Assembly (NCBI RefSeq): GCF_963855985.1
Contig: NC_087098.1
Span: 11,738,501-11,802,500 of the forward strand
From: Ostrinia nubilalis
Taxonomy: Eukaryota; Arthropoda; Insecta; Lepidoptera; Crambidae
Direction: 5' to 3'
DNA length: 64,000 nucleotides
Shown: positions 17,561-64,000 of the stretch, piece by piece
Numbering within the stretch: position 1 is the stretch's first letter
How the letters are laid out: every line of letters begins with the position of its first letter
The notes under the pieces: model-generated
The model's database searches: none
What the model was told of the DNA's origin: nothing
The model's input: the letters and a program-made list of their open reading frames with translations, nothing else
Program-made: the position numbers and the translations under genes

Positions 17561-17847
17561 GGTAATTATAACTTTTTGGAAGTTTTTTTAAAATTTTTGT
17601 TCGAGAAACGCGTAGTAGGGCCCGAAGTTGTCCTTTCCGAGAATCTTTCGTTGCATATGAGTTATGTGTCAGGCAAATATTTTAATGCGTACACCGGCCG
17701 CATGATGCATGGCGCGAATAAATAAAAGAGGTCAAGCGTGAACTGATCGAAGAAAGAAAGATCAAGAGCAAAGCTCTATAGTTCTTACGTTATTTAATTA
17801 TCTGTGGTTACTAATACCTTTTTTTTTTCATTTATTATCATATATTA

Positions 17848-19739
17848 GACAATATCCGGGCATTCCGCAACTTCAAGGGTGACCGTTCTATTGACAAGTG
17901 GAACGCGTACAAACACGCCAGGAACCGCTGTAACAACTTGACCACAGCTGCGAAGCGACGTCACTTTCATGATAGTGTGCTATCTTCTTCTAGCTCCGAC
18001 GTCTGGAAATTCTTAAAATCACTGGGTCTTGGTAAGGCTTCTTGTAGTAATGCCCCTTCCTCATCCTTCACTCCCAACGAACTCAACTTACACTTCTCTT
18101 CGGCCACTCTCTTGGATGACACTACCAAACTCTCTACGATCTCTTACTTAAACTCTCTTCCTATTTCTTCTCCAAGCTCCTTTTCATTCTCCCCTGTCAC
18201 CGTCGATGAGACCAAAAAGTTCATCCTCTCTATAAAATCAACAGCTGTTGGCCCGGATGAGGTTAGTAGAGCGATGATACTCATTATCCTGGACGACTTA
18301 CTTCCTGTTATCACCCATATCATCAACTCCTCATTTGATCGCGGGTGTTTCCCTTCCACTTGGCGACTCGCCCATGTCATCCCTTTACCCAAACTCTCCA
18401 ACCCTACCGCATTAAACCAATTTCGTCCTATCTCCATTTTACCCTTTCTCTCTAAAGTCCTCGAAGCTGCTGCTCACAAGCAATTCTCTAAATTTGTTCT
18501 AGAAAACCATCTCCTCAGCCAATTCCAGTCTGGCTTCCGCCCGGGACACAGCACTACCACTGCACTCTTGAAAATTGTTGATGACGTCAGAGCCGGCATG
18601 GAGGAGTCACGCGTTACCGTTCTTGTATTGATCGATTTCTCTAACGCCTTCAACACGGTCGACCATGACATCCTTCTTGCCATTCTACTCCACCTCGGAG
18701 TCTCATCACCGGCCGCGGAATGGTTCTCATCCTATCTACGCGGTCGGAGACAGGCGGTGCGATTCGGTCGAGCATACTCGGAGTGGAAGGACCTTGCTAC
18801 CGGCGTACCTCAAGGGGGCATACTCTCACCTATCCTTTTTTCCGTCTTCATCAACATTCTTACTTCTCACCTTTCTTCATCCTTTCATCTCTACGCTGAC
18901 GACCTCCAACTCTACGTGCAGGCTGACCCTTCTGAGATATCTGATGCGGTTTCGCGGCTAAATGCTGATCTACACAATATCGCCGATTGGTCCGGGAAGT
19001 TCGGTGTGAAGGTCAATCCTGGCAAGTGTCAGGCGATAGTGCTGGGGAGCTCCAGGCAACTGGCTAAACTGGATCTGGGATCGGTCCCTAGTGTTGTCTT
19101 TGACGGAGTTGTCGTTAACTTCTCTCCATACGTAAAAATCTCGGACTCTTCATTGACAGCACTCTGAGTTGGTCCCAGCATGTCAGGGAAGTCAGTAGGA
19201 AGGTGATCGGCTCAATGCGGGCACTCTACCGCTTTAAAAATTTCCTCCCTTCCAGCACTAAGACCTTACTTGCTCAGTCTCTGATCCTGCCTATCCTCGA
19301 CTATGGTGATGTATGCTGTACGGACATCTCACAGGAACTTTTAAACAAGCTGGACCGCCTCTTGAACAATTGCATCAGATTTATCTTCGGTCTCCGCAAG
19401 TTTGATCACATCTCACCTTTTCGCTCGCAGCTTGGTTGGCTTCCCATCAGACAGCGTAGATATCTTCGTTCACTCTGTATGCTTCATTCAATTCTTTTCA
19501 ATCCTGACTCTCCATCTTATTTAAAAGATAAATTTCAGTACCTCCACTCCACTCACAATAGAAATCTTCGCTCTAGTCAGTCTCTTCAGCTTGCCACCCC
19601 TCATCATAGCACTGGCTTCATGTCCAACTCTTTCTTAGTCTCCGCTGTACGGCTCTGGAACGGCCTTCCGGCCAAATTACGCAAACCTTCTTCCAATTTT
19701 ACTTTCAAAAAGGCACTGCGCAAACATTTCAAGGAATGA
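17848..19739 (+). pseudogene. Non-LTR retrotransposon reverse transcriptase ORF, 5'-truncated and frameshifted (CR1/L2/Daphne-like)
   Basis: The reading frame is open from about 17,848 to 19,167 and then continues in another frame from about 19,134 to 19,739. It encodes a reverse transcriptase: the motif LIDFSNAFNTVDHDIL near 18,630 (RT block A), GVPQGGILSPILF near 18,808 (block B) and YADDLQLY near 18,891 (catalytic YxDD). The second frame carries the C-terminal region usual in CR1/L2/Jockey-type elements, with LDRLLNNCIRFIFGL and RLWNGLPAKLR. No apurinic endonuclease domain is present upstream, so the copy is 5'-truncated. The frame changes at an A5 run (19,134-19,138), consistent with loss of one base. 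The clade call is from motif wording and is tentative; the RT call is firm. Confidence 0.9.
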
Positions 19740-21761: not shown

Positions 21762-22688
21762 TGTGCACGACCGCCCACTGTTGGGATCTGAAGTAGCCGC
21801 TCGGTGTGTCGGTGCGTGCACTGGGTCTGATCGGCGGAGCTCGAACCGCCAACCGTTCATCGATAGTTCTTGATAAATAAAAACGCAATGGACTGTATAG
21901 CTTCTTTAATCACTTCACAAATTCACAAATCTTCACTAAACACTATGTAGGTCCTGTCCTTAAGTCTAGAACTACACTACACTTTGCCCGTTCGAATAGG
22001 GCAACCGCGTCGCGTTTAGGAGGAGCTTAGCTCGACTCGCACTTATTCCGATTTCTCTGCACTGGACTGACTGGATTCACGAACTCACGAACTGAACTAA
22101 CTCAGGAACGAACTCACCTTTTGGGCTCGAGGCGCGCTTCTTATGTCTTGTCTGAGAGCGAGGGTTTAGTCGCGGCAATCGCCCATAATCTACGCCAATC
22201 GCCATGCCCGAATGTAGGCTATCTCTCTTTCAAACCCTCCCTCTCAGACAGACGCGTCCGTGAGCGCTCACATGCCTATCTCGCTCACTCCTAAGCGATT
22301 CCCTATCTTCTTATTCTTAATTATCTGTTTTCCTTAATTAATATGTGTCCTCTTTATTATTTTCATGTAAAAAGTAATACATAGGTTTCGTCTTTCCTTA
22401 TATATTACAATTTAACTTAGTCTTTAATAAATTACATCTTCTATAAAGAATTATTCATCATTTACCATCTTTACTTACGTAACTTACATAAACGGTTATT
22501 ATTTCCATAAATTATATATCAAGCTATTTAATATTATTACAGAGACCATCAAATACATGTTAAAACCTTAAATATTCAATAATTAACATACAAAACATAT
22601 ACATTTACAGTTTACGCGCAACGGTGTACGCATTCGTTCGCGCCACTATTTCGCCGATTTCCTCCTTCTCGGCGAGTCGTCCCCAACA
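21762..22688 (-). repeat. 3' LTR of the BEL/Pao element
   Basis: This 927-bp repeat is nearly identical to 27,241-28,167. Its ends are TG...CA in element orientation. It follows the polypurine tract at 22,689-22,700 and abuts the AAGGT target duplication on its outer side. Confidence 0.95.
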
Positions 22689-22702
22689 GTTCTCCCCCCG
22701 GC
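22689..22702 (-). promoter_or_regulatory. Polypurine tract of the BEL/Pao element
   Basis: On the minus strand GGGGGGAGAAC directly precedes the 3' LTR. This is the expected place and composition for the plus-strand DNA primer, about 20 bp beyond the pol stop codon. Confidence 0.8.
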
Positions 22703-22719
22703 GAAGCTCCCGGCGCCGC

Positions 22720-25700
22720 CTACTCCATCCTCAGCACGGCGAGCCGAGTCACGGGGCGTCGGAAGACGCCGCCCTTGGTCCGGATCTCCGCCACTCGTAC
22801 TGCTCCGTCAGGCCCCGGCCAAACTCGCTCCACGACGCCTCGCGGCCACGTGTTTCGGGGTAGGGCGTGGTCCACAACGACCACAAGGTCGCCAGGGGCC
22901 AGTTGTCGCTGCTGGTTCTGCGATTGGCCACGCGGTACCAAGGTAGGGAGGTACTCGCGCAACCATCTCCTCCAGAAGGCGTCGGCAAGCGCTTGCGTCG
23001 CGCGCCAAAGCCTCTTCTCGTCAGCGCTTGTCGGGCCCGTTAGGGGTAGACCCGATGATGTCCCCAACAGAAAGTGGTTAGGGGTGAGGGCCTCGGGATC
23101 TCGCGGATCAACCGAGACGTGGGTGAGTGGGCGAGAATTGACTGAATGCTCAGCCTCACTCAGCAATGTGGCGAGTACCTCTTCGCTCGGTACCCGCTCG
23201 CGCAGCGTGGCGGCCAATGCCACCTTGATGCTCCTGACCAGACGCTCCCACGCACCGCCCTGGTGCGGAGCGCCTGGTGGGATGAACTGCCATCGGACCC
23301 TCTGTGTGAGAGCCGCATCCTTCAGCTCCGGCAGCCACTCCTTGAACGCTGCTCGCAGTTCCTGGTCCGCGCCCCTGAAGTTGGTCCCATTGTCGGACCA
23401 GATCACTGCCGGCCATCCTCGTCGCGCCGCCATCCGGCGCAACGCCATGATTGCAGAGTCGGTGCTCAGGGAAGGTACCAACTCAATGTGCACTGCTCGC
23501 GTGGTGAGGCACGTGAAGAGTGCACCCCACCTCTTCTCTCGACGGCGCCCGATCTTCACTAGCATCGGGCCGAAGTAGTCCACTCCGCAGTGAGTGAAGG
23601 CCCGCTGAAAGTCTTTCAGTCGGGAATCAGGTAGGTCTCCAGTTATTGGCTGCTGCGGTGTCGCCTTCCTTATTCGACAAAGCTGGCACGAGTGTGCCGC
23701 TGAGCGAACCGCCGTTCTCAGCCCCAGTATTGCGTACTTTTGCCGCAACTCGTTCACGACTCTCTCATTGTTTGCATGGAGAGCCCGCTCGTGGTAATGT
23801 TTCACCAGCAACTTCGTCAGCTGATGCCTTCTGTCTAGGATGATCGGCCTTTTCACATCCTCGTCGACTGCTGCTCTTTGTATGCGACCCCTCATCTTGA
23901 TGATGCCCTCGTGCATCGCAGGGTCCAACGCGAACAGTCGACTTTCCTTTGGAATTGGCTTTCCAGTCCTCAATTCTTTCACTTCCTTGGGGAAACTCTC
24001 CTGTTGCGCCATGATGGTTAGGATCTTCTCCGCGCCTTCCAGGTGCTGCACGTCCAGTTCTCTTTTGCTCTTCGTCTTCACTCTTTGGATGAAGAGCAAT
24101 ACATACGCCAACGTCCTCACAAGTCTCTCATAGCTGGAGAATCTGCTCATGTCTATGAGGGTGTCATGTGGCTCCTCTTGCGCCGTGTGCACCGCTCGCT
24201 CCTCCAGTTCAGGCCATGAGGCCTCCGGGTCTTTCAGAAACTCGGGACCGTTGAGCCAAGTCGTCGTTATGACCTCCCCATCCAGTTTCTTCCTGGTCGC
24301 CTCGTCGGCGACGTTCATTTCTGTGGGGACCCAGCGCCATTCTTGGGGTTCGGAGTCTTCTTGGATCTCTCCCAACCTTACTTGTACGTACTGTCGCTCC
24401 AGCTTGGCGCCATTCTTTATCCAATGCAGGACGGTGCTGGAATCGGTCCAGTAAAAGGTCCGGCTGAACCGCAACCGATGTTCCCGCTTCAGGGAGACCG
24501 CGAGTCTGGTTGCGATCACTGCTGCCTGCAACTCCAGCCTTGGGATAGTCTGGGTCTTCTTTGGCGACACTCTCGCCTTGGAGGCGAGCAGGCTCACCCC
24601 GGCGCCTCCGTTCTTCTTTGGGAAGCGCGCGTATGCCACTGCTGCATAACCCTGCTCGCTCGCGTCGCAAAACATATGTAGTTCGCCCTCTTCCATTTCC
24701 CGCAAACCCACGGCTTCAGGTTCTATATTCATTGTTTCGGCCTTCTCCTCGGTGGGCTTTGTGGCCTTCCTCACACTCACACCGAGCGCCTCCATCTCTA
24801 AGTCCCACGCCACTATTTCCTCTGGGTTGTTCACGACGTGGAGAACCGTCCCACCGTTCTTCTTTATTTTCCTGAACGGCAGGATCCCATGGACCACCCA
24901 TCCCAGCGGAGTCCTAGTTGCCGCCGGCTCGTGCTTTGCTCCTCGTCTCACGTCAGTGGCCACGAGCAAGTCCCAATGATCGGCCCCTATTAGGACCTGT
25001 GGCTTCGCCTTTCCATAGGTCAGACCTTCAATGTCTTTTAAGTGCGGGTACTTCAATACACGGCCTGGTACTGTCTGAGGTGTCAGCTCGAAGTTCTTTA
25101 TCGTCCTCAATACCAGCTCGTGCTCCTCATTCTCGAACCGGCCCTTTATGTTTAACTGTACCTCGCGGCTGGCCTCTTCTTTCGTTGTCGCATTGACCCC
25201 CTTGATGGTTATGGGCCTCGGCGTCCCGCCCTTGGTTAGCGACTTCGCTAGGTCAGCGTCTATCAGTGAGACCGTAGCGCCTTCGTCCAGAAGGGCGTAG
25301 GTCCTTACCTCTCCTAGAGGGCCTCGCAGGGTCACCGGACACATCTTTAAAAGTACCTGCCGATCCGTAGTTGCGGTCGCAGTCACGACGGTCTCCTGCA
25401 CAGGCGTAGTTCTCCGGTCCGCGTGCAGCAGGTGGTGATGAGGTCTAGCACAACGATCACAAGCACGGGCTTTGCAGTTTTGCCGTCTATGAGTGGACAC
25501 TAGGCACAGGAAACGCAATCGGCACTTCTTTATCAGTTCCCACCGATCCGAATCACTTTTGTCTTTGAACCGATCACAGTCTGGCACTACGTGATCTCCA
25601 CCACAACACACGCACTTTATTTGTCTTTTATTGTCACTAACTTGTCCATTATTGTCATTGCGTTCGGTCGTTTCACTCGCGTTATATATTCGCGCACTTT

Positions 25701-26907
25701 TTTTCACTGGCGGCTTCGAAGTTGAGGCTTGCGTTCCGGAACCGGAGGCCATCGGCGTATATGAGTACATCATCGCTTTGTCCGCCTCTTCCATTAGAAA
25801 GCGAGACAGTGCTACGATGTCTGGTTCCCCCGGCCGCTTCCTGTCCGCTGCGAAGTCACACCACCTAGTCCGTGTGTGAGGATTGAGCTTCTCAATGACA
25901 TCCCTCGCCAACATAGGGTTCATCAAATATCCACTGTTATCGATGTTCTGAATAATCGACACAATATTCTGGAGCTTGATGGCGAACTTGTTGAGATCCA
26001 TTGCTGCGGCTCCTGGTTTCGGCAGATGTTTGATCTCTTGCAGCGCACGATCTATTATGTGCTCTGGCCTTCCATAGTACTGGTCTAACGTTCTCACTAT
26101 CAACACTGGATCTGCTGCAGTGTAAAGTAGAGCCGCGACGACCTCTCCCCTTAAACTTGACCGCAGCTTTGCTAGATTGTCGGCCGGTGTTCCTTTCGTT
26201 AAAATCCCGGAATCACGGATTGCCGCTCTAAACGGAAGCCACTCCGTTGCTGCTCCGCTGAATATTGGCAATTCCTGTCTGCCCGGCCGATATGCCATAT
26301 CTCTGATGGATTCTGCTAATTGCTCGATAGCGCGCCCGCTGCTTCTTTGACGTTCCCGCGCAGGCGTCCGCGTCGGCGATCTTGAGTAGCGCCCCTCATC
26401 GGGGGGCTCCCCCCGTGGCACACCCGTATCCTCAACACGCGTCGTTGTTGTCGCGGTCGCAATCGGCTGCTCGCGTAGCCAGCCTTCGACCCGCTCGTGT
26501 GCGTGGTCGCCGGTTTCGCTCGCAACTCTCTCTTCTTCTTGAATGTCTTCGATCTCGGCGGCCAAACGTTTCTTTATAAGGTCCGCTTCGAGTTCAAGTT
26601 CCTTCTTTCTAATCGCAGCCAACCGTTCCGCTGCCGCGATCTCCGCTGCTCTTATTCTGGCGGTCGCACTTGAGGTTGACCTCACTGATGGCGCACGTAT
26701 GGTCACAGTTCTTGGCACCTCTGTTCGTGAGGGTTCTCTTTCTTGCCCCTCTCCTCTCGGGGGTTCCATTTCTTGACCCTCTTCTCGTAGTGGTCCAGTC
26801 GAAGGTGATTGCGGCGGCTCCGCGAACGTTCGCCTCAGCGTGGCTTGTCGCGTTCTCGGCTGCTCCTCCGCGGGTTCCCTGCCGTCTTGGCTCCGGGTAA
26901 CCACCAT
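22720..26907 (-). CDS. BEL/Pao gag-pol polyprotein without reverse transcriptase (1,395 aa from the first ATG)
   Basis: The frame is open from a TTG at 26,958; the first ATG is at 26,907 and I take that as the start (residues below count from 26,958). Order: charged gag with a likely coiled coil (residues ~105-150), CCHC-type zinc knuckles starting CVCCGGDH (~448), aspartic protease core YALLDEGATVSLID (~553; D-E-G replaces the common D-S-G), RNase H with FCDAS (~763), RLELQA and YWTDSS, integrase zinc finger, and integrase core with DYFGPM (~1125), SDNGTNF (~1186) and GGAWERL (~1232), i.e. a D,D-E triad. Between protease (~690) and RNase H (~760) there is no RT fold and no YxDD anywhere. BEL/Pao proteins normally carry several hundred RT residues here. 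The frame is unbroken, so the loss was in-frame or selected. Confidence 0.95.
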   Translation of the reverse strand: MVVTRSQDGREPAEEQPRTRQATLRRTFAEPPQSPSTGPLREEGQEMEPPRGEGQEREPSRTEVPRTVTIRAPSVRSTSSATARIRAAEIAAAERLAAIRKKELELEADLIKKRLAAEIEDIQEEERVASETGDHAHERVEGWLREQPIATATTTTRVEDTGVPRGEPPDEGRYSRSPTRTPARERQRSSGRAIEQLAESIRDMAYRPGRQELPIFSGAATEWLPFRAAIRDSGILTKGTPADNLAKLRSSLRGEVVAALLYTAADPVLIVRTLDQYYGRPEHIIDRALQEIKHLPKPGAAAMDLNKFAIKLQNIVSIIQNIDNSGYLMNPMLARDVIEKLNPHTRTRWCDFAADRKRPGEPDIVALSRFLMEEADKAMMYSYTPMASGSGTQASTSKPPVKKSARIYNASETTERNDNNGQVSDNKRQIKCVCCGGDHVVPDCDRFKDKSDSDRWELIKKCRLRFLCLVSTHRRQNCKARACDRCARPHHHLLHADRRTTPVQETVVTATATTDRQVLLKMCPVTLRGPLGEVRTYALLDEGATVSLIDADLAKSLTKGGTPRPITIKGVNATTKEEASREVQLNIKGRFENEEHELVLRTIKNFELTPQTVPGRVLKYPHLKDIEGLTYGKAKPQVLIGADHWDLLVATDVRRGAKHEPAATRTPLGWVVHGILPFRKIKKNGGTVLHVVNNPEEIVAWDLEMEALGVSVRKATKPTEEKAETMNIEPEAVGLREMEEGELHMFCDASEQGYAAVAYARFPKKNGGAGVSLLASKARVSPKKTQTIPRLELQAAVIATRLAVSLKREHRLRFSRTFYWTDSSTVLHWIKNGAKLERQYVQVRLGEIQEDSEPQEWRWVPTEMNVADEATRKKLDGEVITTTWLNGPEFLKDPEASWPELEERAVHTAQEEPHDTLIDMSRFSSYERLVRTLAYVLLFIQRVKTKSKRELDVQHLEGAEKILTIMAQQESFPKEVKELRTGKPIPKESRLFALDPAMHEGIIKMRGRIQRAAVDEDVKRPIILDRRHQLTKLLVKHYHERALHANNERVVNELRQKYAILGLRTAVRSAAHSCQLCRIRKATPQQPITGDLPDSRLKDFQRAFTHCGVDYFGPMLVKIGRRREKRWGALFTCLTTRAVHIELVPSLSTDSAIMALRRMAARRGWPAVIWSDNGTNFRGADQELRAAFKEWLPELKDAALTQRVRWQFIPPGAPHQGGAWERLVRSIKVALAATLRERVPSEEVLATLLSEAEHSVNSRPLTHVSVDPRDPEALTPNHFLLGTSSGLPLTGPTSADEKRLWRATQALADAFWRRWLREYLPTLVPRGQSQNQQRQLAPGDLVVVVDHALPRNTWPRGVVERVWPGPDGAVRVAEIRTKGGVFRRPVTRLAVLRME

Positions 26908-26944
26908 AGTTCCAGTTGCTAATCGGGTTCTAAGTGCTCGTCGT

Positions 26945-27219
26945 CCGTAGGGTTCCAACTATGACCCGCTTCCTTACGTTCCGGTTTCCAAAGTCCGGGT
27001 TCCGTAGCTCGGGTTCCTTAGTTGGGGTTCCGTAGACCAGGGGTTCCGTAGTCCGGGGTTCCGTAGACCAGGGGTTCCGTAGTCCGGGGTTCCGTAGTCC
27101 GGGGTTCCGTAGTCCGGGGTTCCGTAGTCTGGGGTTCCGTATTCTGGGGTTCCGTAGTCCGGGGTTCCCTACCCCAGGGTTCCGTATTCCAGGGTGCCGT
27201 AGATCCAGGGGTTCCGTAG
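26945..27219 (-). repeat. 15-bp minisatellite in the BEL/Pao leader
   Basis: On the plus strand about 14 units of the type GGGGTTCCGTAGTCC fill the leader between the primer binding site and gag, with central units nearly identical and edge units diverged (GTATTCCAG, GTAGATCCA). A minus frame reads through it as RNPGLRNPGLRNPGL from an ATG inside the LTR (27,367) but overlaps the leader and LTR, so I do not call it a gene. Confidence 0.9.
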
Positions 27220-27220
27220 A

Positions 27221-27237
27221 TCCGGCTCGAAGGACCA
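27221..27237 (-). promoter_or_regulatory. Primer binding site, tRNA-Tyr type
   Basis: In element orientation TGGTCCTTCGAGCCGGA lies 3 nt inside the 5' LTR. It is complementary to the 3' end expected for a eukaryotic tRNA-Tyr (acceptor strand TCGAAGGA plus CCA). Seventeen nucleotides match the tRNA end as I know it. It would prime minus-strand DNA synthesis. Confidence 0.75.
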
Positions 27238-27240
27238 AAC

Positions 27241-28167
27241 TGTGCACGACCGCCCACTGTTGGGATCTGAAGTAGCCGCTCGGTGTGTCGGTGCGTGCAC
27301 TGGGTCTGATCGGCGGAGCTCGAACCGCCAACCGTTCATCGATAGTTCTTGATAAATAAAAACGCAATGGACTGTATAGCTTCTTTAATCACTTCACAAA
27401 TTCACAAATCTTCACTAAACACTATGTAGGTCCTGTCCTTAAGTCTAGAACTACACTACTCTTTGCCCGTTCGAATAGGGCAACCGCGTCGCGTTTAGGA
27501 GGAGCTTAGCTCGACTCGCACTTATTCCGATTTCTCTGCACTGGACTGACTGGATTCACGAACTCACGAACTGAACTAACTCAGGAACGAACTCACCTTT
27601 TGGGCTCGAGGCGCGCTTCTTATGTCTTGTCTGAGAGCGAGGGTTTAGTCGCGGCAATCGCCCATAATCTACGCCAATCGCCATGCCCGAATGTAGGCTA
27701 TCTCTCTTTCAAACCCTCCCTCTCAGACAGACGCGTCCGTGAGCGCTCACATGCCTATCTCGCTCACTCCTAAGCGATTCCCTATCTTCTTATTCTTAAT
27801 TATCTGTTTTCCTTAATTAATATGTGTCCTCTTTATTATTTTCATGTAAAAAGTAATACATAGGTTTCGTCTTTCCTTATATATTACAATTTAACTTAGT
27901 CTTTAATAAATTACATCTTCTATAAAGAATTATTCATCATTTACCATCTTTACTTACGTAACTTACATAAACGGTTATTATTTCCATAAATTATATATCA
28001 AGCTATTTAATATTATTACAGAGACCATCAAATACATGTTAAAACCTTAAATATTCAATAATTAACATACAAAACATATACATTTACAGTTTACGCGCAA
28101 CGGTGTACGCATTCGTTCGCGCCACTATTTCGCCGATTTCCTCCTTCTCGGCGAGTCGTCCCCAACA
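27241..28167 (-). repeat. 5' LTR of the BEL/Pao element
   Basis: The 927-bp direct repeat of 21,762-22,688. It would contain the element promoter in U3. One mismatch to the partner LTR was seen (27,460). Confidence 0.95.
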
Positions 28168-51349: not shown

Positions 51350-54075
51350 TTAATCAAGAGTCAAGTCTTCAGTCGGAACTGCTTCGAAGAAATGATGGAT
51401 GGTGTCCACCACCCTGGCCACGACAGTCTTGATGACAGGAGAACCGACCTCCCTGATGATTTCGTTCCCGCTTTGCGCTATCACTCCTTCTGCCGCTTGA
51501 CCTGGCAAAAAAAAAACATGAGTAGAATATGCTACAAAAATAATATTCCTAAGGTGGCAGTCGCCAACAAATGAGTCAATAATGTATCATATCAGTAGGT
51601 TGGGATACGACCTGCCCCGGCTTCACACAGGTGCTAAGTCTAGCTAAGTCAGCCGTTTGGTGTAATGGTTTCGATACGGACTACTATGCCGAGAGGTCCC
51701 GGGTTCGATTCCTGGCCGGGCAGAAATTGAAATGATGAATTTTAATTTCTGTGTTGGGTCTGGGTGTTACTATTTATAATATGTATGTATTTACAAAAAA
51801 GAAAAAGTATTTGGGTAATGTTATATCCGTTGTCTAGTACCCATTGTACAAGCTTTGCTTAGTTTGGGACTCGAAGTGTAAAAATTAAATATTTATTTAA
51901 GTACCTATACACTAAACCTTCCTCATGAATCACTCTATCTATGTATAAAAATAATCGCTACAAAATCTAAGCATACTCGTACATAGGGACAGACAGCAGA
52001 AAGTGGCTTTGTTTATATACTATGTAGTGATTAGTGACTAGCATTAGGTAGGTATTTGTATTTTTATAAGAGTTTATAAGATGTACATTTGGATTCATTG
52101 CAGTACTCACAATGAGACTTCGTAATGATTGATAACTTCCTTAACATCTAGTTGAGAAATTATGTATCTAATTAGTTGCCTTTGTAGCAATCGTTACATA
52201 GAACCATTGAGCCTTTTTTTATGTTCTATTTAACGCTTAATTAAGGAAATCACGCAAAAGAAACATCAGCAATTGTATGATAAAATGTGAAGTCATTACT
52301 TTTCATTGAGTAGTTCAAAACATAATAATACAACCAATGCTTTTGTATGAAGTTAAAAAAATGATATTTTATTGTATTATGCAGGACTACGACAGTCCAT
52401 CGATGGACATAAGTGAATGAGAAAACAAAGAAAATGATCCAGCTTTTTCTAGTTACTGTCCGCTATTCCATTAAGGTCGTCGGTCCATCGAAGAAGGAGC
52501 CGAGATGAGGTCTTGTTCGATTCCAGAACACAATTTGTTCTGAGACAGATATGGCGGGCTAGCCCTCTGCTACTTAAACTAAGCATTTTAGAATTAAGGT
52601 AACTCACCTAACACCCTGTTTCCATTGAAAAGATTTTCAAATCTGACAGTAGACCTGTCTTTCAGGTCGTAAGTGTGCGACCAGCTCTTGACAGTCCAAT
52701 GATTTTTCCCGTCTTTCCCTTGCTTATCACTAATGTCCATGTTGACGTCAATTACTGCTTTTTCTATAATAAAAATTACAATAACGTTTAGTCAACAAAA
52801 TGATGTCGTGCCAAGCGTGCCCAAACAACTACACGCAGGAAGATTTCTCTAAATCTTAATCTCGCATGAGTTTTTTTTTACTTTCTTTAGAGTTTGTTAT
52901 GTGTAAAAGTGACATTAATAAATCTTTGTCAAGAAATACATGAGTTTTGAAGTATTTTTGATGACTTTTCTACTATACTTACTAAGATCCACGTGAACTT
53001 TTCCATTGCCTTCGATGGGCAGTACCAGTAATCGCCCAGACATGACATAGTGTCCATCTAAAGTGGCATCACACTGTATTCTCAGGAACAGTTTTGAGTT
53101 TTTTGCATCCCGTCTGAAAATAAAATGTCACTTAATTACTTAATTACTATAAATTGAAATAAGTTGGTCCACAAGGACCAACTTATTTCTAAGCCGTTGA
53201 TAAATCTACAAAAATCCTGGAAGCTGAAATTAGTTGTTGTCAAAATTAAAAAATACATAATGTATTTCACTTAGTAAACATTACAGGCACTGAAAACATT
53301 GGTGGAAATGTGGAAATAGAGATACTAAGATGTTTTATATACTGCCAAGAACATCCATTAATTAGTTTAACTGTACTTGTACTTGTCTAACTTGTATAAC
53401 CGTATGCACTTACTGAGCCTTCTTCGCTATGCAATTCCTTAGCCCTTTAACTGTTACGTTGTCCAACAACAATTTGAGAGTTGGAGACGACGAATCTATA
53501 TTTTTGAAGAATACTGGATCCAAAGTCTCGACCCCGAACTCTGGGATGCCCGCAGTGTAAATGGGTATAGCTGCTTTCGTTGACTCTTTCGCACATTTGT
53601 CATCGTCTCCTTTGCATTTGAGGAATGTCACTGAAGAAATAAATTATTTTTTCCAAAATCAAGAAAGTTAAATTCATAAATTCCTATTAAATATTTAAGG
53701 CGAAAATAAAAATTAAACTTTCCAAACAAGGAGGATTTTGATTTGAAATCATGGTTATAGCAAAGAATACGTCATGAGCCCCACTCTTATTCTTAACATC
53801 TATTAATTATTATTCATCATTGGTTTTTAGCATAGCAGGGTAAGTTAAAAGTTAAATTATGAAAAGATTGTGAAAGAAAAGAAAACATATTTTATTGTTT
53901 TTTAACCATCCGAACTCTGTAGCTGCAAATTTTCTAGTTCTAGTCATAATAAAGTAAAAAATACAGTATTGGACAAAAAAAGTGAATTAAGTGAGTGAAA
54001 AGCGTCCATCAAATTACCTGGATCAGCATTAATCACTGTGACCAGCACACTCACTAGCAATAAATACGAGAGCAT
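51350..54075 (-). CDS. JHBP/takeout-family secreted protein, gene 3 (237 aa, 5 exons)
   Basis: Exons: 54,018-54,075, 53,414-53,630, 52,983-53,113, 52,608-52,763 and 51,350-51,501, GT-AG introns, phases 1, 2, 1, 1, open to TAA. Exon 1 is a signal peptide (MLSYLLLVSVLVTVINA). Exon 2 has KCKGDDDKC (C-x6-C), the FGVETLDPVFF region and GLRNC; exon 3 has IQCDATLDGHYVMSGRLL and LPIEGNG; exon 4 has GKDGKNHWTVKSWSHTYDL and FENLFNGNRVL; exon 5 has EIIREVGSPVIKTVVARV and ends AVPTEDLTLD. Protein wording is closest to gene 4 (shared ETLDP, YVMSGRLL, REVGSPVI/REIGSPVI), so these two look like the most recent duplicates. Expected role: secreted carrier of a hydrophobic ligand; the ligand is unproven. Intron 4 holds a SINE and intron 2 a perfect hairpin. 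Confidence 0.93.
51645..51900 (+). mobile_element. tRNA-derived SINE, copy 1 (JHBP gene 3 intron 4)
   Basis: A-box-like TTTGGTGTAATGG, then CGGACTACTATGCCGAGAGG and B-box GGTTCGATTCC, followed by CGGGCAGAAATTGAAATGAT and a tail with ATATCCGTTGTCTAGTACCC. The copy at 58,484-58,726 has the same structure, which defines the family. No clear target duplication was seen here. Confidence 0.85.
53156..53189. repeat. Perfect hairpin, 15-bp arms, 4-nt loop (JHBP gene 3 intron 2)
   Basis: GAAATAAGTTGGTCC, loop ACAA, then GGACCAACTTATTTC. It lies about 43 bp downstream of the exon 3 acceptor side. Function unknown. Confidence 0.75.
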
Positions 54076-54700: not shown

Positions 54701-55221
54701 GTGAAACGTCAAAGCCCAGCATCGGAACACTGATAAAAACGTTCATACCTACCAAATTTTGTAACTTAAACTAATTTTCATGCTGAATGCCTTTCTTAAG
54801 TTTATGACTTTTTTCTTCAAAATATAACAACAAACTAGAAACCATTGCTGTACAAGCCCTTGCTGCCTATAAAAAATCGCCCTGTACAGTTAAAGATAAA
54901 CAAGTTCAAAGAAAAGGAGTTAATATGCTGCATGCGGTCTGAAGATGACGATACTACATATTTATTGATAGTTTACAAAACATACTCGACCTTTGCCTAC
55001 TGGCCTTGTTTGTATGAAGGATTTAAAAAACGTCACCAGCTGATTTCTTCTTCTAGTTTAGCAAAATACACTCTTGACGTTGTTCACAAGGTTTAAAACA
55101 GTGTGTTCTCAGTAGATATCTTAGTCTGTTTAAATAATATTCAAGTGTAAGGTATGCTATGTTAACAGTGATTTCTAATATTACAACTACATTCTACTCC
55201 TTCACACATCACACATCATAC
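54701..55221. other. Intergenic DNA, nothing recognised
   Basis: An 83-codon plus frame (54,845-55,096) has no recognisable family. Confidence 0.45.
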
Positions 55222-55340
55222 AGGTAGCAGGAAGGCGCTGGACGCAGGCCGCTATCAACCAAGCAACATGGAAAGCATTGGGGGAGGCCTATGTTCAGCA
55301 GTGGACATCCTATGGCTGAGATGATGATGATGATGATTGT
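55222..55340 (+). mobile_element. RTE-type 3' fragment with (ATG)n tail
   Basis: GGTAGCAGGAAGGCGCTGGA, then GCATTGGGGGAGGCCTATG and GTTCAGCAGTGGACATCC, ending GATGATGATGATGATG. It is the clearest example of the ATG-tail subfamily end in this window. Confidence 0.9.
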
Positions 55341-55601
55341 ACTCCTTAAATGTCCTATCAATATTTATCAAAACTGCGTCATACTTCATCATTATCAGGT
55401 CATATAGTTTCCACTATAGGAGCATCATCATCTCTAATTTCCTAAGGGCAAATCAAGGTTACATGCCTTAAATTCTCCAGCCAGATAGGGAGGATATTCT
55501 TATATTCACGTGAAAAGTAGGTGTGGCTCCACACGACCTAAATAACGCATAATATTTTTAAAGATATAATATATGTGTGTATATTAATATATTTATTTCA
55601 A

Positions 55602-55607
55602 GTCTAT
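55602..55607 (-). terminator. AATAAA poly(A) signal, JHBP gene 4
   Basis: GACTTGAAATAAATATAT on the minus strand, about 7 nt beyond the stop codon. Confidence 0.6.
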
Positions 55608-55613
55608 TGCAGG

Positions 55614-58600
55614 ATTAAATCTTCCAATGGAACAGCATGGAAAAAGGTTTGAATTGCATCTGCAAGTTTAACAATGAGTGTGTTGATCACTGGTGATCCG
55701 ATTTCCCGGATGATTCCATTCCCATTGGCTGCCACGACAATCTCAGCTGCTTTGGCTGTAAAAATAATAAAAAGTTAAATATTTTTAATTAGGTATGTAC
55801 TTAATTAGAAAGTTAAAATGTCGCTATGAACTTTAAAAATTCAATGATGATAGGTAATCCATAAAAATTCCGACTGCGCTGAAAGAGAATTGCACACGTG
55901 ATGCCCTTTCAAAACTGGGGCTAAAACTGTCCTTTTCCTGAGTCTCAAAATATACAAAGAAAGTAAAAGAATGACAAACATCCGCTCATTTATCTCACAA
56001 ACTTTCACATTTTTTTAAACATTATCAATAGTCCCGTTAATTGCAGGGCTCAAAGAGGCGGCGGGGATAGAACCCGCGTTCCTTGGACCCTAGTTTATGA
56101 TGCAATCATATCCAATGGCGAGGATTGAAATCAACACCCTGTAGAATTGCGATGGCAGACTCGAATAATATTTACCTAAAACCTCATTTCCACCGAATAA
56201 GTTTTCTAAACGGACATGCGACTGGTCCTCCAGCTCATAGGTGTACGACCAACCCTTGATAGACCAGTGTTTCTTCCCGTCTTTCCCTTGTACATCTTTC
56301 AGGGTTACATTAAAGCTAGTGACAAATCTATCTGAAAATAAAGAACAAAATAAATAATAACCTGACTGAGAAACTTGCAGAAGTAAGTAAAAATGATTTA
56401 TACAGTGTGAGTCACGTTAAAGTGTACATATGAAAATAGATGAAACTAGACCTATTTTTATCGACAAAAAATTTTTGATATTTTTTTTAATTTTTTTATA
56501 GAATTTTTTTTCTTCCAATTACTTATTGTAAGGAAAACGTAATAACTTATAAACTAAGCGGTATATCCTGATAAAATAAAAACAGTAATAATGTTAAATA
56601 ACAGGCGATACTAAAAAAATACATAAAATACACAAAAAATGCCAACAAATAATAAAAAAATATACTTATTGAAAAAAACCTGTTTTTAAATTCGTGTTTT
56701 TTTGGTTATTTGACAAATTTCTCCAAAAAATGCCTCTATAACAGGTGGTTTTTATTACTTTGTATTATTCGCTATCGTATTATCTTTGAAAAACCAAAAA
56801 TTGCATGTCTCTACCCCTATCACAACATTTGCTATGATCGTTTGAACAAAGGCCTGCCACAACATTATTCTCCGCTACAGGTAGAGACAATTTTAATTTT
56901 AACTAAAATGCTTATTTTACTTCGAAATCTTTTGTTTTTATTAGAAATCTAACTTTTCTGTATCAAAATTACAAATCTAGAGCCATTTTCAGTTTCGTTG
57001 TTAACGAAGCGTTGAATGGCGCGCCCGGAGAGGCTTAGTTCAAATGATCATTGCAAACGTTGTGATAGGGATAGAGACATGCGATTTTTGGTTTTACGAA
57101 GGTAATACGATAGAAAATAATACAAAGTAATAAAAACTACCGGTTATAGGGGCATTTTTTGGAGAAATTTATCAAATAACCAAAAAAACACTAATTTAAA
57201 ACCAGATTTTTTTCAAAAAGTATCATTTTTTATTATTTATTATATGATCAAACGAACTTACCAAGTGAAGTTCGATCTGAATTATCCTGTTTTCGCCGAA
57301 GAGATTTATTTTACCGTGTAGTACCCCTGTACGACAAGCCAATCCGCACACAATATTCAGCGTAGTAGTAGTAAAAAACAAAAGAGCGGGCAACCCCACC
57401 CCTACCACGCTGTGGGCTCGGTGTCCGAGCGGTCTCATTATATTTAGAGAAGAGATCACATTGACGTTTACCTCCAGGGAAGAAGATATAGAAATCTTCG
57501 GGTTGGGAGGGACCTTAAATCTCTTCGGCGAAAACAGGATAATTCAGATCGAACTTCACTTGGTAAGTTCGTTTGATCATATAATTATCCTGTTTTCGCC
57601 TCCGAGATTTATTTTACCGTGTAGATGTTTAGAGCATGGATCAATGTCCATGTTAAATGGTTAAGAGAGTAAATGTCAATGTACTAAATACATAATAAAG
57701 CAATATTTTTGTATTATAATCGTATTGCATCACTTATTCATAACAATAACAAGTATCACGGTCTCAACAAGATTTTGTTCATTATAGAGTATTATTATAT
57801 ACATTTATTTGTACTTCTATTAACTGTTAAGTACGACTACTGATTGTAAAAAGTTGCCAAGACAGTTGACAGAGCATCCTGTCTATCCAGCACACTGGCT
57901 AATTGTGTCAACGTTGACAGCGGCGCAAACCGCAGGCAATACTGCCGCGTGTCGCGTGCTGTGTGGGCCGAACACCCTCGTGTCGACACTCCTTTCCTAT
58001 ATTTATCCAGTTTCATCTCAGAACTGAGCTTGACGACGGTAGTGGTTAACACCGAATCGATCACAGTGACTGCAAGGCTAACACTCTGATTGTTGTAAAA
58101 CATAGGCTCACTTGCATTTTAATTAAATAAATAAATAATGTGGTTAATTAAAACTTATTAATTTATTTGGATACAGTTTGACCAGTATTCCAAAACAGTA
58201 TTAATTTGGATTCCAAGTAACACTGTTGCGAGGAAAAAGTTTGCTTTCTATTTAATAGCACCTTTTAATAGCAATCTTTTGATTCTTGAAACCTGACCTA
58301 TAAATTATAATATTTATTTAAATAATTATATATTTCAATAAATTATATGATTTCACTAACGATATTGCTAAGCGGTGGTTATTTAATGTTATTATAGGAT
58401 GCACCCGACTTTAGAATATGCTAAGATAATAGAGTAAGGTAGGTACAATGATGTAATTGAGCATTGTAAAAATATTTATTTGTCAGTCATTTGGTGTAGT
58501 GGTTTCGAAACGGACTACTATGCCGAGAGGTCCCGGGTTCGATCCCCGGCCGGGCAGAAATTGAATTGATACATTTTAATTTCTGTGATGGGTCTAGGTG

Positions 58601-61600
58601 TTACTATGTATAATTTGTACTTATGTGTATAAAAACGGTATTTAAGTATGTTTATATCCGTTGTCTAGGACCCATAGCTTTGCTCAGTTTGAGACTAGGA
58701 GCGTAGTGTAAAATTTCGAAGGAAGGATATTTATTTGTTATTTGCGGAGTGTATAGCGGAGTCTGGTACGTTTTGTTTGATCCACGACTGCCAAATACAA
58801 AACTCACTGCCAAGGAAAGGTAAGCTTAAATGGGCAATATGGTACTACTGATGTACCTGTTGCCCCAGCATTCTATATTTTATTTTTTTTAATTTATTTT
58901 AGTGAAAAAAACGTATTAGCGTCTAAACGTATTAAAGTCTAAAAAAAAAATGGTCGCCATTCTAAGGCGAATTAATTGGAATTAATTCATGTTAATCGTG
59001 TAGAAATCTCTACGCCAGACGATAAAATATGAATTATGACTAAATATCAAACAAAGTTCAAGAAACAAAAAATAGGTTTATGTCATGTACTGAAACCAAA
59101 GCGTCTAACATTTTCTGAGACAATATTAAACCAAGCTCCTACTCCGTGTCTTTATTAAGACACCTTGATTCAGTCAGCTTCAGTATTATGACTGTGATGA
59201 TTGAATTTTTATAATCATGCTAAGAAAAAATAACAAAATACTAATTCTCAATTTATACTTCATAGAAAGGGAAGAAAGACTCATTCATTATTATGAGTTT
59301 GTGGCAGCGTTATCGATTCGTAAAATAATATCGCATTATTTTTTGGTATTATTAAAAAATGTCCTTAATCTAAACTAAAGGTTACAAGTAGTGGTAGTAC
59401 TGGTAGGTACCTACATAATACATAGTTTATTTTATGTGGTTGATTCGTTCTTTGACTGACCAAAGTCTACTAGTCCGGTTGTTATAACAAGCGGCCCGAT
59501 TTCTTTTTTGATGCGTCAATAATTTTCTGTTACATTGATTACAATGTAATTATTATTGTGTTATATTTATAAAGGCATAGTTATTATCGCTTTAACGCAT
59601 AATAAGATACTTTGCTTGTCTAAAAGATTTAGCAAGTTAAGAAATGATTCAATGTATTTCATGATGTCGCATCTCTTCTTATGAGAATTCTAACGTTATA
59701 CATAAATAATTTATACGAACCAATTGTAAAACAGTACATGGAGTTAAAACTGACCTTTTTTTTTTTTTTTTTTTTTTAGTAAATAAATAATAATAATGAT
59801 GATGAAGCCTTACTTTGTAAGACTATCAATAGTATTATTAGCATTAATCATACATTGATTAGTAGGTACAAACCTACATAATAATGTTTTTCCGATACAA
59901 GAAAAAATGACGTCATCTTATGTACCGATACAGTTTAAGGAAGCTCTTAGATTTTATCTATTATTTATAGATACAAGCTGATGAGACGTCATGAATAAAA
60001 AAATAAACTTTGTAAAAATATCAGGGCTAAAGAAAGGCCGCAAAGAGACAAACAAAAATGTTGCCTGTTTGTTCAGATACAAAACAAACATCCGTTAAAA
60101 AAAGATCATAATTCTATTTGCTTTTCAGTGGCTATTGTGTTTATGTAATAAACATAAATATTGATAAGTTTCTTTAAACCATAAATGAATCTTTTGTTAA
60201 AAGTTTAATTGCGGTTAAAATATCATCCCTTTTGAAGTGCTTAAACCACATAAACTTTGTTTAGCACCTTATATAAACGGTATCTAAGTCCACCATCTAG
60301 GAACATTTTTTTTTTTTTTTTAACAAGTGGGTAATCTGAGAATGTACTCGTGTCGACGGATGCGATTAAGAATATTCTTAATATCAACGTCTCTGCGCCG
60401 AAGTGTATAATTATTTGTTATGTATAATTAATTATGTTTACTCGCATGGTTATGATGATTATGAAAAAAATCATCTGGGTTCGAATCGGGAATCGAATAG
60501 GTATCTCGGTACAATAAATTCTGTAACCGGATATTAGGTACATTGCATTTAAAATAACAATATTTTAAGCGGCCAGCACATACCTGTACATAGATGGCGC
60601 GTCGTCTAGGGACGCGGGTTACCTTGGTGTTCTGGTCGGTCTTTAATGGCGCTTCCCGCGTTGCGTTGGCAGCGCTGGGCATGCGGCGGTGGCGGCGCGG
60701 CGCTGCGGCGTAAATAACGGCGCCTGCGCGGCGTGGTTGCGCCGCGGGCGGGTGATAGGTCTTAGCCCATCATACCATACAGCAGGGCGTAGCTTGTCGG
60801 TACGGCCTCTGTATAAAGCCTCGATTCACACAGTTATGCGAACGGCTAAAACTTAAATTACATATTCAGTGCAGCAGCCTGGATTAGTTGTCATATCAAA
60901 TAAATACCTCTTTTCCCGTTTTAGAGAATTATAATGAGTTATAGTTGTCGACCGTCGATGTAATTGGTCGACCGACCGGAAATGTAAAAAGATCTTTGTA
61001 AGTTTCCAACAAAAAAATGTGAGACTGATAAGTACTCACAATCACAATGTCAGTTAATATGAGTCGTTGCATAGAAAAAACGACATATTGTCATACTTCA
61101 TATATAAAGTAGGCATTTATTTCCACTTCGACTCGGTTCGGTCAACAAACCGGCCTAAGGTTTATTTAGGATCTTTTATTCTGACCTTATAATAGCAAGT
61201 AATGAATCTACATAAATGCACTTTGAATTTTGATCTGATACTTATTTCTTTCTTACTAGCCTTTGTATTTAGACCAATATCGATTGGTGTAATGTATAAA
61301 AATACGAAACAACAAAATTATTCAGTTACCCTTTGTAGCATTGAACAATGTGTATGGCCACAGGGTCATCGGTCGTTATAAAAGCAGGCGGAGGCTCGAC
61401 TGGGGCGAGTGCGTCCGCGGCGCCCGGTCATCATGCTCCAAGACGGTTGATGGTTCATAAGGTGTAAGGTCAAGAAGGCAAGCTCTTAATGTGGGTAGTT
61501 TCGTACAAACGCAACATTTTTCTGTATGAGCTCATTATGTTCTGTTTTTACGGCTTTTAAAAATGGCCGAAAAGAAGATACTTAACTCGTAAAAGTGAAT

Positions 61601-64000
61601 AATTTTACAATACCTGGCTATCTCGGTAGTTAATATCTCGTTTTTACTCGCTAGAGCGAAAAACGGCTACTGGTTAAAAAAATAACCGAACATAAAGTGG
61701 CTGCTGGTTAATATCTCGTATTAACGCTACTGGTTAAAAAATGACCCGCAAAATGACCGAATATAAAGTGGTTGCTGGTTAATATCTCGTATTAACTCGC
61801 TAGAGCAGAAAATGGCTACTGGGTAACATCTCGCATTACCTCGGAGAAAAAAATGGCTACTGGGTAACATCTCGCATTACCTCGGAGCAAAAGAATGGCT
61901 ACTGGGTAACATCTCGCATTACCTCGGAGCAAAAAATGGCTACTGGTTAACATCGCGCGTTAACTTGGAGCTAAAAATGGGTCAAAGTTACGCGTCGTGT
62001 CACAACGCTTATAATAAAAATGTACGAGCACTTGCACAAAATAGTTGTTACAACCAACCTTGTGTTGGGTCTAATTCTCGTCACTACACTGCACAACTTA
62101 AAATAATTACGTTTTTTGTCGGTAAAAACGTCCTGGTGACGTCACTTAAGCATTTTTCTTATACTGCGTGCGGTCGTTGCGCGTGCGCACAAAGGAATGA
62201 GACCGCTCGGACACCGAGCCCACAGCGTGGTAGGGGTGGGGTTGCCCGCTCTTTTGTTTTTTACTACTACTACGCTGAATATTGTGTGCGGATTGGCTTG
62301 TCGTACAGGGGTACTACACGGTAAAATAAATCTCGGAGGCGAAAACAGGATAATTGGCATTTTTTGTGTATTTTATGTATTTTTTTAATATCGCCTGTTA
62401 TTTAGCATTATTATTGTTTTTATTTTATCAGGATATACCGCTTAGTTTAAAAGTTATTACGTTTTCTTTACAATAAGTAATTGGAAGAAAAAATTTTTTA
62501 TAAAAAATTAAAAAAAAATCTCAAAAATTTTTTGACCTCTTTTTTGTCGATAAAAATAGGTCTAGTTTCATCTATTTTCATATGTACACTTTAACGTGAC
62601 TCACACTGTATTTAAGACCACCTCAGTAGGTACACAGTTACAAATTTTAATTGTACCTAGAGCCTTTGTACCTACCTAGGTAAAAAAAAAGAAATCTAAT
62701 CCCAGGTACGTGGCCTTTAATTTAATGAATACTATAAAACTTTACAAAACAGAACAGTTGCATACCTAGTGCGACTGACTAACTTACTAAAATAAAATAA
62801 CATTGAAAAATAACTCACTAATATCCGCGTGATTCTTTCCTTTGCCTTCAATTGGTATTAGCAGCAGTCGACCTGACATTACATAAAGGCCATTTAAAGT
62901 TACATTACATTCAATTTTGATGAATAATTTTGAATTAACGACGTCGCGCCTGAAAATGAAAACCATTAATATTTTTTTGTATCAGTTCTAGGTTCAAATT
63001 AAATATTATTTAGCATAATTATGGTAATTGCAATTACAATGGATAATTACCATTTTTGTGTTAATAATACCTATATACCTACCTAATAACCTACTCTATC
63101 GCCTCAAAAAAAATTTTGTTGCCATGACTTAAAAGGTTTTTGGATTGACCGTAACAATTACCCACTAATTCCTTCAACTTAAATATTATTTATTTTTCTA
63201 TACTTTTTAGGTCTTCCAGCCGTAGGAAGACGTAGCGTGGGCAGGCCTCCTACTAGGTGGACCGACGATCTGGTAAAGGTCGCGGGAAGAGCCTGGATGC
63301 GGGCAGCGCAGGACCGTTCATTGTGGAAAACCTTGGGGGAGGCTTTTGTCCAGCAGTCGATGTCATTTGGCTGAAACATACGAACGAACGAACTCTTTAG
63401 GTAATAATACTAAGTACCTACAGAGGAGAAGGATTGATCCTATGAGATGCTTTTTATAAAGAAGAATGAAGATAATGACCGTTATTTTATGTCCTAATAA
63501 TTAACAGTAATGAAATATTATATTGAAGTTTTCATTTTATTACAAGCTTTTATTTAATTTCATCTATTGTATACGGTGTGTGCATTAAAAGCTTCTTTAA
63601 AAAAATGACTTAAAATTGTAATTCATCATCATATCAGCCATAGGACGTCCACTGCTGAACATAGGCCTCAACCAATGCTTTCCATGTTGTCCGGTTGGTA
63701 GCAGCCTGTGTCCATCCACAAGGTGGACCGACAACATAGTAAAGGTAGCAGGAATTTTATTTATTTAAAGAAAATATACTTACTGTACCGTCCTCGCTTT
63801 ACAATTTCTAAGACCTTTGACAGTGGTGTTATACATTATCAGTTTAATGTTCAGACTTGATGAGTCTATGGTCTCGAAGAATAGTGGGTCCAGTGTTTCC
63901 ACTCCGTACTCAGGGATTCCCGCAGCAAATATTGGAATAGCTACGTTAGTAGTATTCGTCAGGCATTTCACGTCTCTTGCATTGCATTTAATTATAAAAG
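55614..64000 (-). CDS. JHBP/takeout-family secreted protein, gene 4 (5' exon outside the window)
   Basis: Visible exons: 63,784-64,000, 62,819-62,949, 56,176-56,331 and 55,614-55,755, GT-AG, phases 2, 1, 1, open to TAG. The first visible exon is 217 bp if it ends at the window edge, exactly the length of exon 2 in genes 1 and 3, so probably only the signal-peptide exon is missing. It has KCNARDVKC (C-x6-C), YGVETLDPLFFETIDSS and GLRNC; the next has IECNVTLNGLYVMSGRLL and LPIEG-type wording (LIPIEGKGKNH); then GKDGKKHWSIKGWSYTYEL and LENLFGGNEVL; the last has REIGSPVINTLIVKL and ends AVPLEDLILQ, 10 nt shorter than its paralogues. Intron 3 is about 6.5 kb because of a 6.2-kb inverted-repeat unit; intron 2 holds two RTE pieces. 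No coding damage was seen. Confidence 0.9.
56041..56120 (-). repeat. tRNA-like SINE remnant (JHBP gene 4 intron 4)
   Basis: On the minus strand GCGGGTTCTATCCCCGCC resembles a B-box stem-loop. An A-box is not convincing. It may be a decayed SINE head or a pseudo-tRNA. Confidence 0.3.
56401..56643 (+). repeat. Left outer terminal inverted repeat
   Basis: Starts TACAGTGTGAGTCACGTT and reads through ATCTATTTTCA-complementary and T-rich blocks to ACACAAAAAATGCC. It matches 62,356-62,610 inverted, with small indels in the T-rich runs. Confidence 0.9.
56644..57240. mobile_element. Nested foldback element (~600 bp) splitting the left inverted repeat
   Basis: The stretch from about 56,650 to 56,866 is mirrored by about 57,020 to 57,235: for example TTTGGTTATTTGACAAATTT against AAATTTATCAAATAACCAAA, and GCATGTCTCTACCCCTATCA against TGATAGGGATAGAGACATGC. 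The right terminal repeat has no such interruption, so this is a later insertion. The core (about 56,867-57,019) has no ORF. Confidence 0.8.
57241..57630. repeat. Palindromic junction with AATTATCCTGTTTTCGCC ends
   Basis: AATTATCCTGTTTTCGCC occurs at 57,278 and 57,583, and inverted at about 57,528-57,545. GATCAAACGAACTTACCAAG (57,244) recurs inverted near 57,560. The 38-bp piece between the two inverted TTTTCGCC ends at 57,546-57,583 is the same as that beside the left inner repeat, which suggests rearranged or multiply inserted element ends. Confidence 0.6.
57837..58088 (-). other. Terminal-exon-like ORF inside the 6.2-kb unit
   Basis: The minus frame ends ...SVLDRQDALSTVLATFYNQ with TAG at 57,837, and an AATAAA lies about 30 nt further on (57,802-57,810). 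Composition is mixed and protein-like (SSEMKLDKYRKG, ARDTRQYCLRFAPL), unlike the surrounding AT-rich DNA. An acceptor-like ...AACAATCAG precedes AGTGTTAGCC at about 58,070, giving phase 0. It may be the last exon of an internal or captured gene whose first exon could be at 60,590-60,840. I recognise no family. Confidence 0.3.
58472..58738 (+). mobile_element. tRNA-derived SINE, copy 2, with 12-bp target duplication
   Basis: The element spans about 58,484-58,726 between perfect ATATTTATTTGT duplications (58,472-58,483 and 58,727-58,738). The head has A-box-like TTTGGTGTAGTGG and B-box GGTTCGATCCC; the body matches the copy at 51,645-51,900. It inserted into the 6.2-kb unit. Confidence 0.92.
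58739..60587. other. AT-rich interior of the 6.2-kb unit, nothing recognised
   Basis: Poly-T runs lie at about 59,757-59,778 and 60,306-60,321. No ORF, exon or repeat family was assigned. Confidence 0.45.
60584..60840 (-). other. CpG-rich first-exon-like segment inside the 6.2-kb unit
   Basis: A strongly CpG-rich island in AT-rich DNA. On the minus strand an ATG at 60,682 opens MPSAANATREAPLKTD and ends ...RRRAIYVQ at ATGTACAG|GTATGT, a donor-like site at about 60,584. Upstream GC-rich sequence would be the leader. It could be the first exon of a gene carried by, or captured into, the element. No homology recognised. Confidence 0.3.
61378..61385 (+). promoter_or_regulatory. TATAAAAG box next to a GC-rich block
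   Basis: GTTATAAAAGCAGGCGGAGG lies at 61,376, followed by GC-rich sequence and an ATG at about 61,434 that opens only a few codons. It looks like a core promoter but no gene follows. Confidence 0.3.
61620..61980 (+). repeat. 41-bp minisatellite inside the 6.2-kb unit
   Basis: Units start ATGGCTACTGG at 61,812, 61,853, 61,895 and 61,936, with internal CATCTCGCATTACCTCGGAG. A fifth start lies at 61,977. Degenerate units with GGTTAATATCTCGTATTAAC occupy about 61,620-61,810. Confidence 0.9.
62196..62610 (-). repeat. Right terminal inverted repeat, uninterrupted (415 bp)
   Basis: The inner part 62,196-62,355 starts AATGAGACCGCTCGGACACC and ends GCGAAAACAGGATAATT; it runs directly into the outer part (GGCATTTTTTGTG) that ends AACGTGACTCACACTGTA. 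The left counterpart is split by about 0.6 kb. The right copy therefore shows the ancestral arrangement. Confidence 0.85.
63207..63385 (+). mobile_element. RTE-type 3' fragment (JHBP gene 4 intron 2)
   Basis: GACGTAGCGTGGGCAGGCCT, then CTAGGTGGACCGACGATCTG, and GGCTGAAACATACGAACG at the end. 5'-truncated copy of the GGCTGAAACGAACG subfamily. Confidence 0.85.
63627..63757 (-). mobile_element. Rearranged RTE-type 3' fragment (JHBP gene 4 intron 2)
   Basis: The first part (CATCATATCAGCCATAGGAC, then ACTGCTGAACATAGGCC) is in minus orientation. The last about 45 bp (ACAAGGTGGACCGACAACAT, GTAAAGGTAGCAGG) read in plus orientation. The piece is thus a head-to-head join of two RTE segments. Confidence 0.75.

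Follow-up and report, generated by a model that had tools for sequence, protein, structure and literature searches.

The 6.2-kb stretch that enlarges intron 3 of a juvenile-hormone-binding-protein (JHBP) gene is very likely a nest of non-autonomous DNA transposons: an outer element of about 1.1 kb, E1, is split by a block that carries a short and a long member of an inner family Z, i.e., Zs and Zl, together with a SINE. The stretch lies in a window of 64,000 nucleotides of Ostrinia nubilalis DNA, which is the whole of the DNA analysed here. Such layering of elements is ordinary.

Outer element and host intron

The window contains four JHBP genes, all on the minus strand, and the intron in question belongs to gene 4. 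The name of the gene rests mainly on the original prediction and on the mutual similarity of the exons, because exon 4 of gene 4 matches the Pfam JHBP family weakly (E 7.4e-05, 22.5 bits) and does not reach the cut-off of 29.2 bits. The counterparts of intron 3 in the paralogues measure 346, 349 and 219 bp, and when 6,210 bp are taken out of the 6,487-bp intron of gene 4, 277 bp remain, in keeping with the predicted match to paralogue introns of 219–349 bp. The large size of the intron is explained, as had been proposed, by a transposon-like insertion that has inverted ends and is flanked by a short duplication; the whole block lies inside intron 3 and is presumably removed with it by splicing. 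The features of the locus are as follows.

62818 to 56332, minus strand: intron 3 of JHBP gene 4, 6,487 bp, from GT/AG borders and from homologous exons in three paralogues
56397–56400: TTTA to the left of E1, read from the sequence; under a TA duplication, the TA is 56401–56402
56401–57241: left 841 bp of E1, i.e., left arm (T1 + T2), 182-bp spacer and inner right arm (57034–57241)
57242–62355: insertion in the right arm of E1; the arms join gap-free once it is removed
57242–57279, plus strand: X, the left half (38 bp) of a perfect palindrome, with the same sequence as 57545–57582 read on the opposite strand
57284–57540: Zs, short Z member, 257 bp, at the palindrome centre, with AATT flanks and inverted ends exact over 25 bp
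57545–57582, minus strand: X', right half of the perfect palindrome, from sequence comparison
57587–62351: Zl, long Z member, 4,765 bp, with AATT flanks and exact terminal inverted repeats of 38 bp
58484–58726, plus strand: SINE inside Zl, with a tRNA-like head recognised by eye, between 12-bp direct repeats
60541–60840: GC-rich stretch in Zl, 58% GC
61775–61980, plus strand: minisatellite in Zl, about 5 copies of a 41-bp unit, with weaker copies from 61629
62356–62610: remaining 255 bp of E1, the outer portion of the right arm, from alignments
62611–62614: TTTA to the right of E1, read from the sequence; under a TA duplication, the TA is 62609–62610

The terminal inverted repeats described in the original prediction are real and have the lengths given there, i.e., 243 bp on the left (56401–56643, T1) and 255 bp on the right (62356–62610). 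Aligned with each other, they are identical in 232 of 243 columns and have one 12-bp gap; the raw self-comparison match, 56400–56645 against 62354–62611, shows 91% identity over 258 alignment columns, of which 12 are gap columns. Within the window, the 18-mer TACAGTGTGAGTCACGTT has exactly two occurrences, one in each outer end and in inverted orientation; with 3 mismatches or fewer allowed, 0.06 matches are expected (100 shuffles). The TTTA reported beside both ends is present in the sequence, and since TTTA is found at 1.2% of window positions, its chance occurrence on both sides would be mildly unlikely under the TA reading. Two independent elements, one for each outer end, were considered and rejected, because both ends are parts of one inverted repeat. 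Self-comparison also bears out the long inverted repeats that had been noted inside the stretch.

T1 runs directly into a second repeat, T2 (56644–56851), and the two form one continuous left arm of 451 bases. The inverse of T2 lies at 57034–57241 and that of T1 at 62356–62610, and when 57241 is joined to 62356 the right arm is identical to the full left arm at 418 of 451 positions (92.7%); the only gap, 12 bp at position 64, falls inside T1, and the join is gap-free. Aligned alone, T2 and its inverse agree at 184 of 205 positions. The alignment scores are 212.5 for T1 and 163 for T2, to be compared with 31.5 and 26.5 for the best of 300 shuffles each, and 56646–57241 forms a single long hairpin when folded (z = −27). 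Because the arms become continuous without a gap when 57242–62355 is removed, the outer element is about 1,096 bp long (841 + 255), with arms of 451 and 463 bp and a spacer of about 182 bp, and its right arm is split by an insertion of 5,114 bp. ATT is found at 57239–57241 and again at 62353–62355, a possible duplication around this insertion. The left and right parts of E1 have GC contents of 27.5% and 22.7%, respectively. Self-comparison of the window revealed no second copy of E1, and between the arms and sites outside them it gave only short two-copy matches.

A different order of events, compatible with the same nested anatomy, would have the nest form elsewhere and the loaded E1 move into the intron by its outer ends as a 6.2-kb composite. 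The clean short duplication at the outer flanks would suit such a move, and the account of SINE insertions in PMC4016481 describes SINEs inserted into other elements and composites that kept mobilising; however, the window holds no second copy of the composite, an element that is sixfold longer and has an interrupted arm would be expected to move less well, and the model takes one step more than the sequence requires. We consider this course of events unlikely, though deserving of some weight.

The window contains further repeats. Direct repeats of 927 bp (21762–22688 and 27241–28167) are 99.9% identical and enclose an open frame of 1,412 codons (22723–26958, minus strand); the region 21762–28167 looks like a young LTR retrotransposon. 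A 450-codon frame at 17815–19164 (plus strand) has a reverse transcriptase domain (PF00078, E 5e-34) and is probably part of a non-LTR retrotransposon. A dispersed repeat family is represented in and around the JHBP cluster by about eleven pieces on both strands, at ~28.8, 29.3, 36.3, 37.4, 42.9, 45.8, 46.5, 54.5, 55.2, 63.2 and 63.6 kb.

The inserted block

With less certainty than applies to the split of E1, the block appears to hold two members of one family, Z, of which Zs interrupts a perfect palindrome about 86 bp long and Zl sits at the right edge of that palindrome. The Z end motif AATTATCCTGTTTTCGCC occurs at 57280 (plus), 57544 (minus), 57583 (plus) and 62355 (minus) and nowhere else in the window, where 0.05 occurrences are expected. 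Zs and Zl have common ATCCTGTTTTCGCC ends that start at the same base, AATT on all four flanks, and different interiors. Inward of ATCC, the four ends have 14 to 38 exact bases in common; outward, they share AATT alone; the exception is Zs, whose ends mirror each other because it sits between X and X'. Of the left 156 bp of Zs, 153 agree with the right end of Zl, and the only differences are three adjacent bases (57298–57300 versus 62335–62337). End positions 15–17 read GAA at both ends of Zs and TCC at both ends of Zl, as if, within each copy, the sequence of one end had replaced that of the other. The palindrome and its edge offer two AATT sites, both of which are occupied, and E1 offers 16, which is suggestive at most. 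No second copy of Zl or of the palindrome is present in the window, and as the same holds for E1, the status of these elements as families rests on one locus, with Zs and Zl as two copies of Z.

The inner part may be parsed in another way, in which a single small element, 57242–57582, has ends of at least 67 bp that consist of X and a Z end, and Zl inserted beside it later and came to share sequence by recombination. The inverted arms of 70 bp at 57239–57308 and 57516–57585, which are 100% identical, are what such an element would display; the sharing between the ends of Zs and Zl, however, halts at AATT, beyond which Zl borders on the far end of X' to the left and on E1 DNA to the right, and this makes the single small element a doubtful reading. 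Considerably less probable still is that Zl is no transposon, but host DNA or repair filler whose end repeats were copied from Zs. The GC-rich islands, an interior without transposase and the agreement of the right end with Zs (153/156) could be reconciled with filler, but both Zl ends have TCC over 38 exact bases where both Zs ends have GAA, and Zl therefore has a matched end pair of its own.

We return to a nest with two Z members. E1 would have entered the intron by cut-and-paste, with a transposase supplied elsewhere and most likely of the Tc1/mariner kind, and the palindrome, Zs, Zl and the SINE would each have entered at a target of their own. The Z elements would have been placed into AATT sites by a different transposase, likewise supplied elsewhere, one at the centre of the palindrome and the other at its edge within the E1 arm. 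Divergence differs between the layers: the Zl ends agree at 38 of 38 positions, the X arms at 38 of 38, and the E1 arms at 92.7%; the lower divergence of the inner layers agrees with their being younger, without proving it. Mis-assembly at the inverted repeats may also have given rise to the arrangement.

Interior of Zl and coding searches

The SINE in Zl has a relative elsewhere in the window (58482–58716 against 51648–51886, 81.6%). The 12-bp direct repeats that flank it lie at 58472–58483 and 58727–58738 and may partly be SINE tail; ARAGORN called no tRNA in the window. Apart from the SINE, Zl has no match to the rest of the window in the self-comparison. A further GC-rich stretch of Zl, 61361–61460, has 60% GC.

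The statement that the unit has no recognisable transposase holds, since neither 19 open reading frames of the unit nor the six frames of Zl contain a Pfam domain above cut-off. The six-frame scan of Zl was run with X at stops, and ATG11 alone turned up, below its cut-off; this and the other matches below cut-off (FAM70, VP1_protrusion, Phospholamban, PhoLip_ATPase_C and C5orf34_2nd) were taken as chance. For E1, three plus-strand frames of 56401–57284 and three minus-strand frames of 56402–57543, which cover its left 841 bp, gave no Pfam match, from which it follows that E1 is non-autonomous, and nothing further. A search of solved structures with two open reading frames gave no match, and protein searches with two and three candidates gave nothing at E ≤ 1. 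Part of the minus-strand frame 60431–60769, i.e., 60431–60712, matches a 94-aa hypothetical protein with 92 of 94 residues identical (98%). This protein comes from a 300-bp contig labelled Staphylococcus aureus, which is probably insect DNA contaminating a bacterial assembly, and the match shows only that another sample contains this stretch and is no evidence of coding.

At the nucleotide level, Rfam gave no match at the gathering score in 55000–64000, and two below the gathering score in 56401–62610 were taken as chance. Exact-pattern scans of element sequences yielded 0 matches in viral and bacterial contig collections, blastn against phages with 56401–57640 and 57587–62351 as queries gave no match, and neither did megablast of 56401–62610 against plasmids and E. 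coli genomes; these collections consist of prokaryotic or viral DNA, and absence from them says little. Six pieces of element sequence and a Tc3-like end were found in no paper, and TACAGTGTG was absent among the matches listed, both for text other than figures, in which sequences are not searchable.

That the 6.2 kb form one element of the foldback or Pack type from a little-known superfamily, with complex terminal repeats that include the inner palindrome, would be in line with the matching outer ends and flanks and with the unusual interior without transposase, but is very improbable: the outer repeat and the inner one make up a single arm, which is unbroken on the left, and on the right its two parts are separated by precisely the 5.1-kb block, which carries ends and AATT flanks of its own. 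The observation from which that view arose is confirmed, and its interpretation is partly supported: the nested elements expected inside the stretch are present (Zs, Zl and the SINE), whereas the single cargo-bearing element whose terminal repeats are unusual and complex gives way, on the evidence of its own repeats, to a split element of 1.1 kb.

Relation to known transposons

E1 is small (1,096 bp) and AT-rich, has terminal inverted repeats and contains no domain that was found; it is probably a MITE, and of the Tc1/mariner kind, without being formally filed there. Its termini read TA-CAGTG...CACTG-TA, which makes the Tc1/mariner type likely. Long terminal inverted repeats are known from nematode Tc3, and E1 resembles the long-repeat MITEs of the Tc1/mariner group in having TA beside CAGT...ACTG, no coding sequence that was found, a high AT content and a structure that is a near-complete inverted repeat. 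A relative of E1 that encodes a transposase did not turn up in the sequences searched. An 8-bp target duplication is a trait of hAT elements, and it was rejected for E1, as 56395–56402 (GATTTATA) and 62609–62616 (TATTTAAG) do not match. Foldback-type arms are not indicated either, there being no tandem array of internal direct repeats in the arms of E1.

The section on Tc1-like elements in PMC4054914 describes CAGT...ACTG ends with TA duplications, but gives 12–28 nt as typical for Tc1/mariner terminal inverted repeats, compared with 451–463 bp in E1. The assignment is weakened further because TTTA on both sides fits a 4-bp duplication equally well, and because CAGTG is not exclusive to the group: in the MITE table of PMC2997013, the silkworm elements BmMITE-14 to -16 start with CAGTG and have 8-bp duplications (tabulated NNNNNNNN). 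IS3EU, for which the description in PMC10045372 gives TA..TA ends and a duplication of usually 6 bp, was rejected, as the flanks of E1, GATTTA and TTTAAG, differ and form no 6-bp duplication.

The inner family Z matches no family that could be named. According to the entry for ISL2EU in PMC4482050, members of this PHIS superfamily group use the target A|AT|T, have ends that usually begin with GG and terminal inverted repeats of 6–259 bp, and average ~4,840 bp in their autonomous form. The AATT around both Z copies would follow from such a target, the 38-bp repeat falls within that range and Zl (4.77 kb) is near that mean; however, the Z ends lack an initial GG, starting, according to which duplication is assumed, with TATCCTG, ATCCTG or TCCTG, and the six frames of Zl contain neither a DDE/THAP transposase nor a YqaJ exonuclease domain. 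The AATT is palindromic, so that 2-bp, 4-bp and TA readings of the duplication all fit. Spy elements, which the same source characterises by the lack of a duplication and an AAATTT target, were rejected for Z, which has AATT on both sides.

The Pack-type idea suits, if anything, the inner family. Pack-type elements have common ends and different interiors, and this trait is seen in both Z copies (2/2), both of them at this locus. Z differs from Pack-type elements in that no captured host gene was identified and in being represented by just these two copies; as to a host-gene origin of the interior, no Pfam match exceeded its cut-off and one open reading frame matches the hypothetical 94-aa protein only.

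Taken together, a candidate giant transposon of unknown type is corrected to what is very probably a nest of ordinary elements, and exact ends are now available for three searchable families, E1, the palindrome and Z, with which repeat annotation can resolve them. If other Z copies should be found to sit in palindromes and to carry different host fragments, the family would offer a useful example of targets chosen by DNA shape.

A close parallel is the nest in Helicoverpa zea that is described in the CYP9A14 account of PMC1852546, where a MITE-like element, HzMITE3, lies within the MITE HzMITE2-1 in intron 8. The block in the present case differs in measuring 5.1 kb and in carrying several further elements, and the two are likened by description, not by sequence; in both, a MITE of about 1 kb with terminal inverted repeats, located in a moth intron, is split by a non-coding element.
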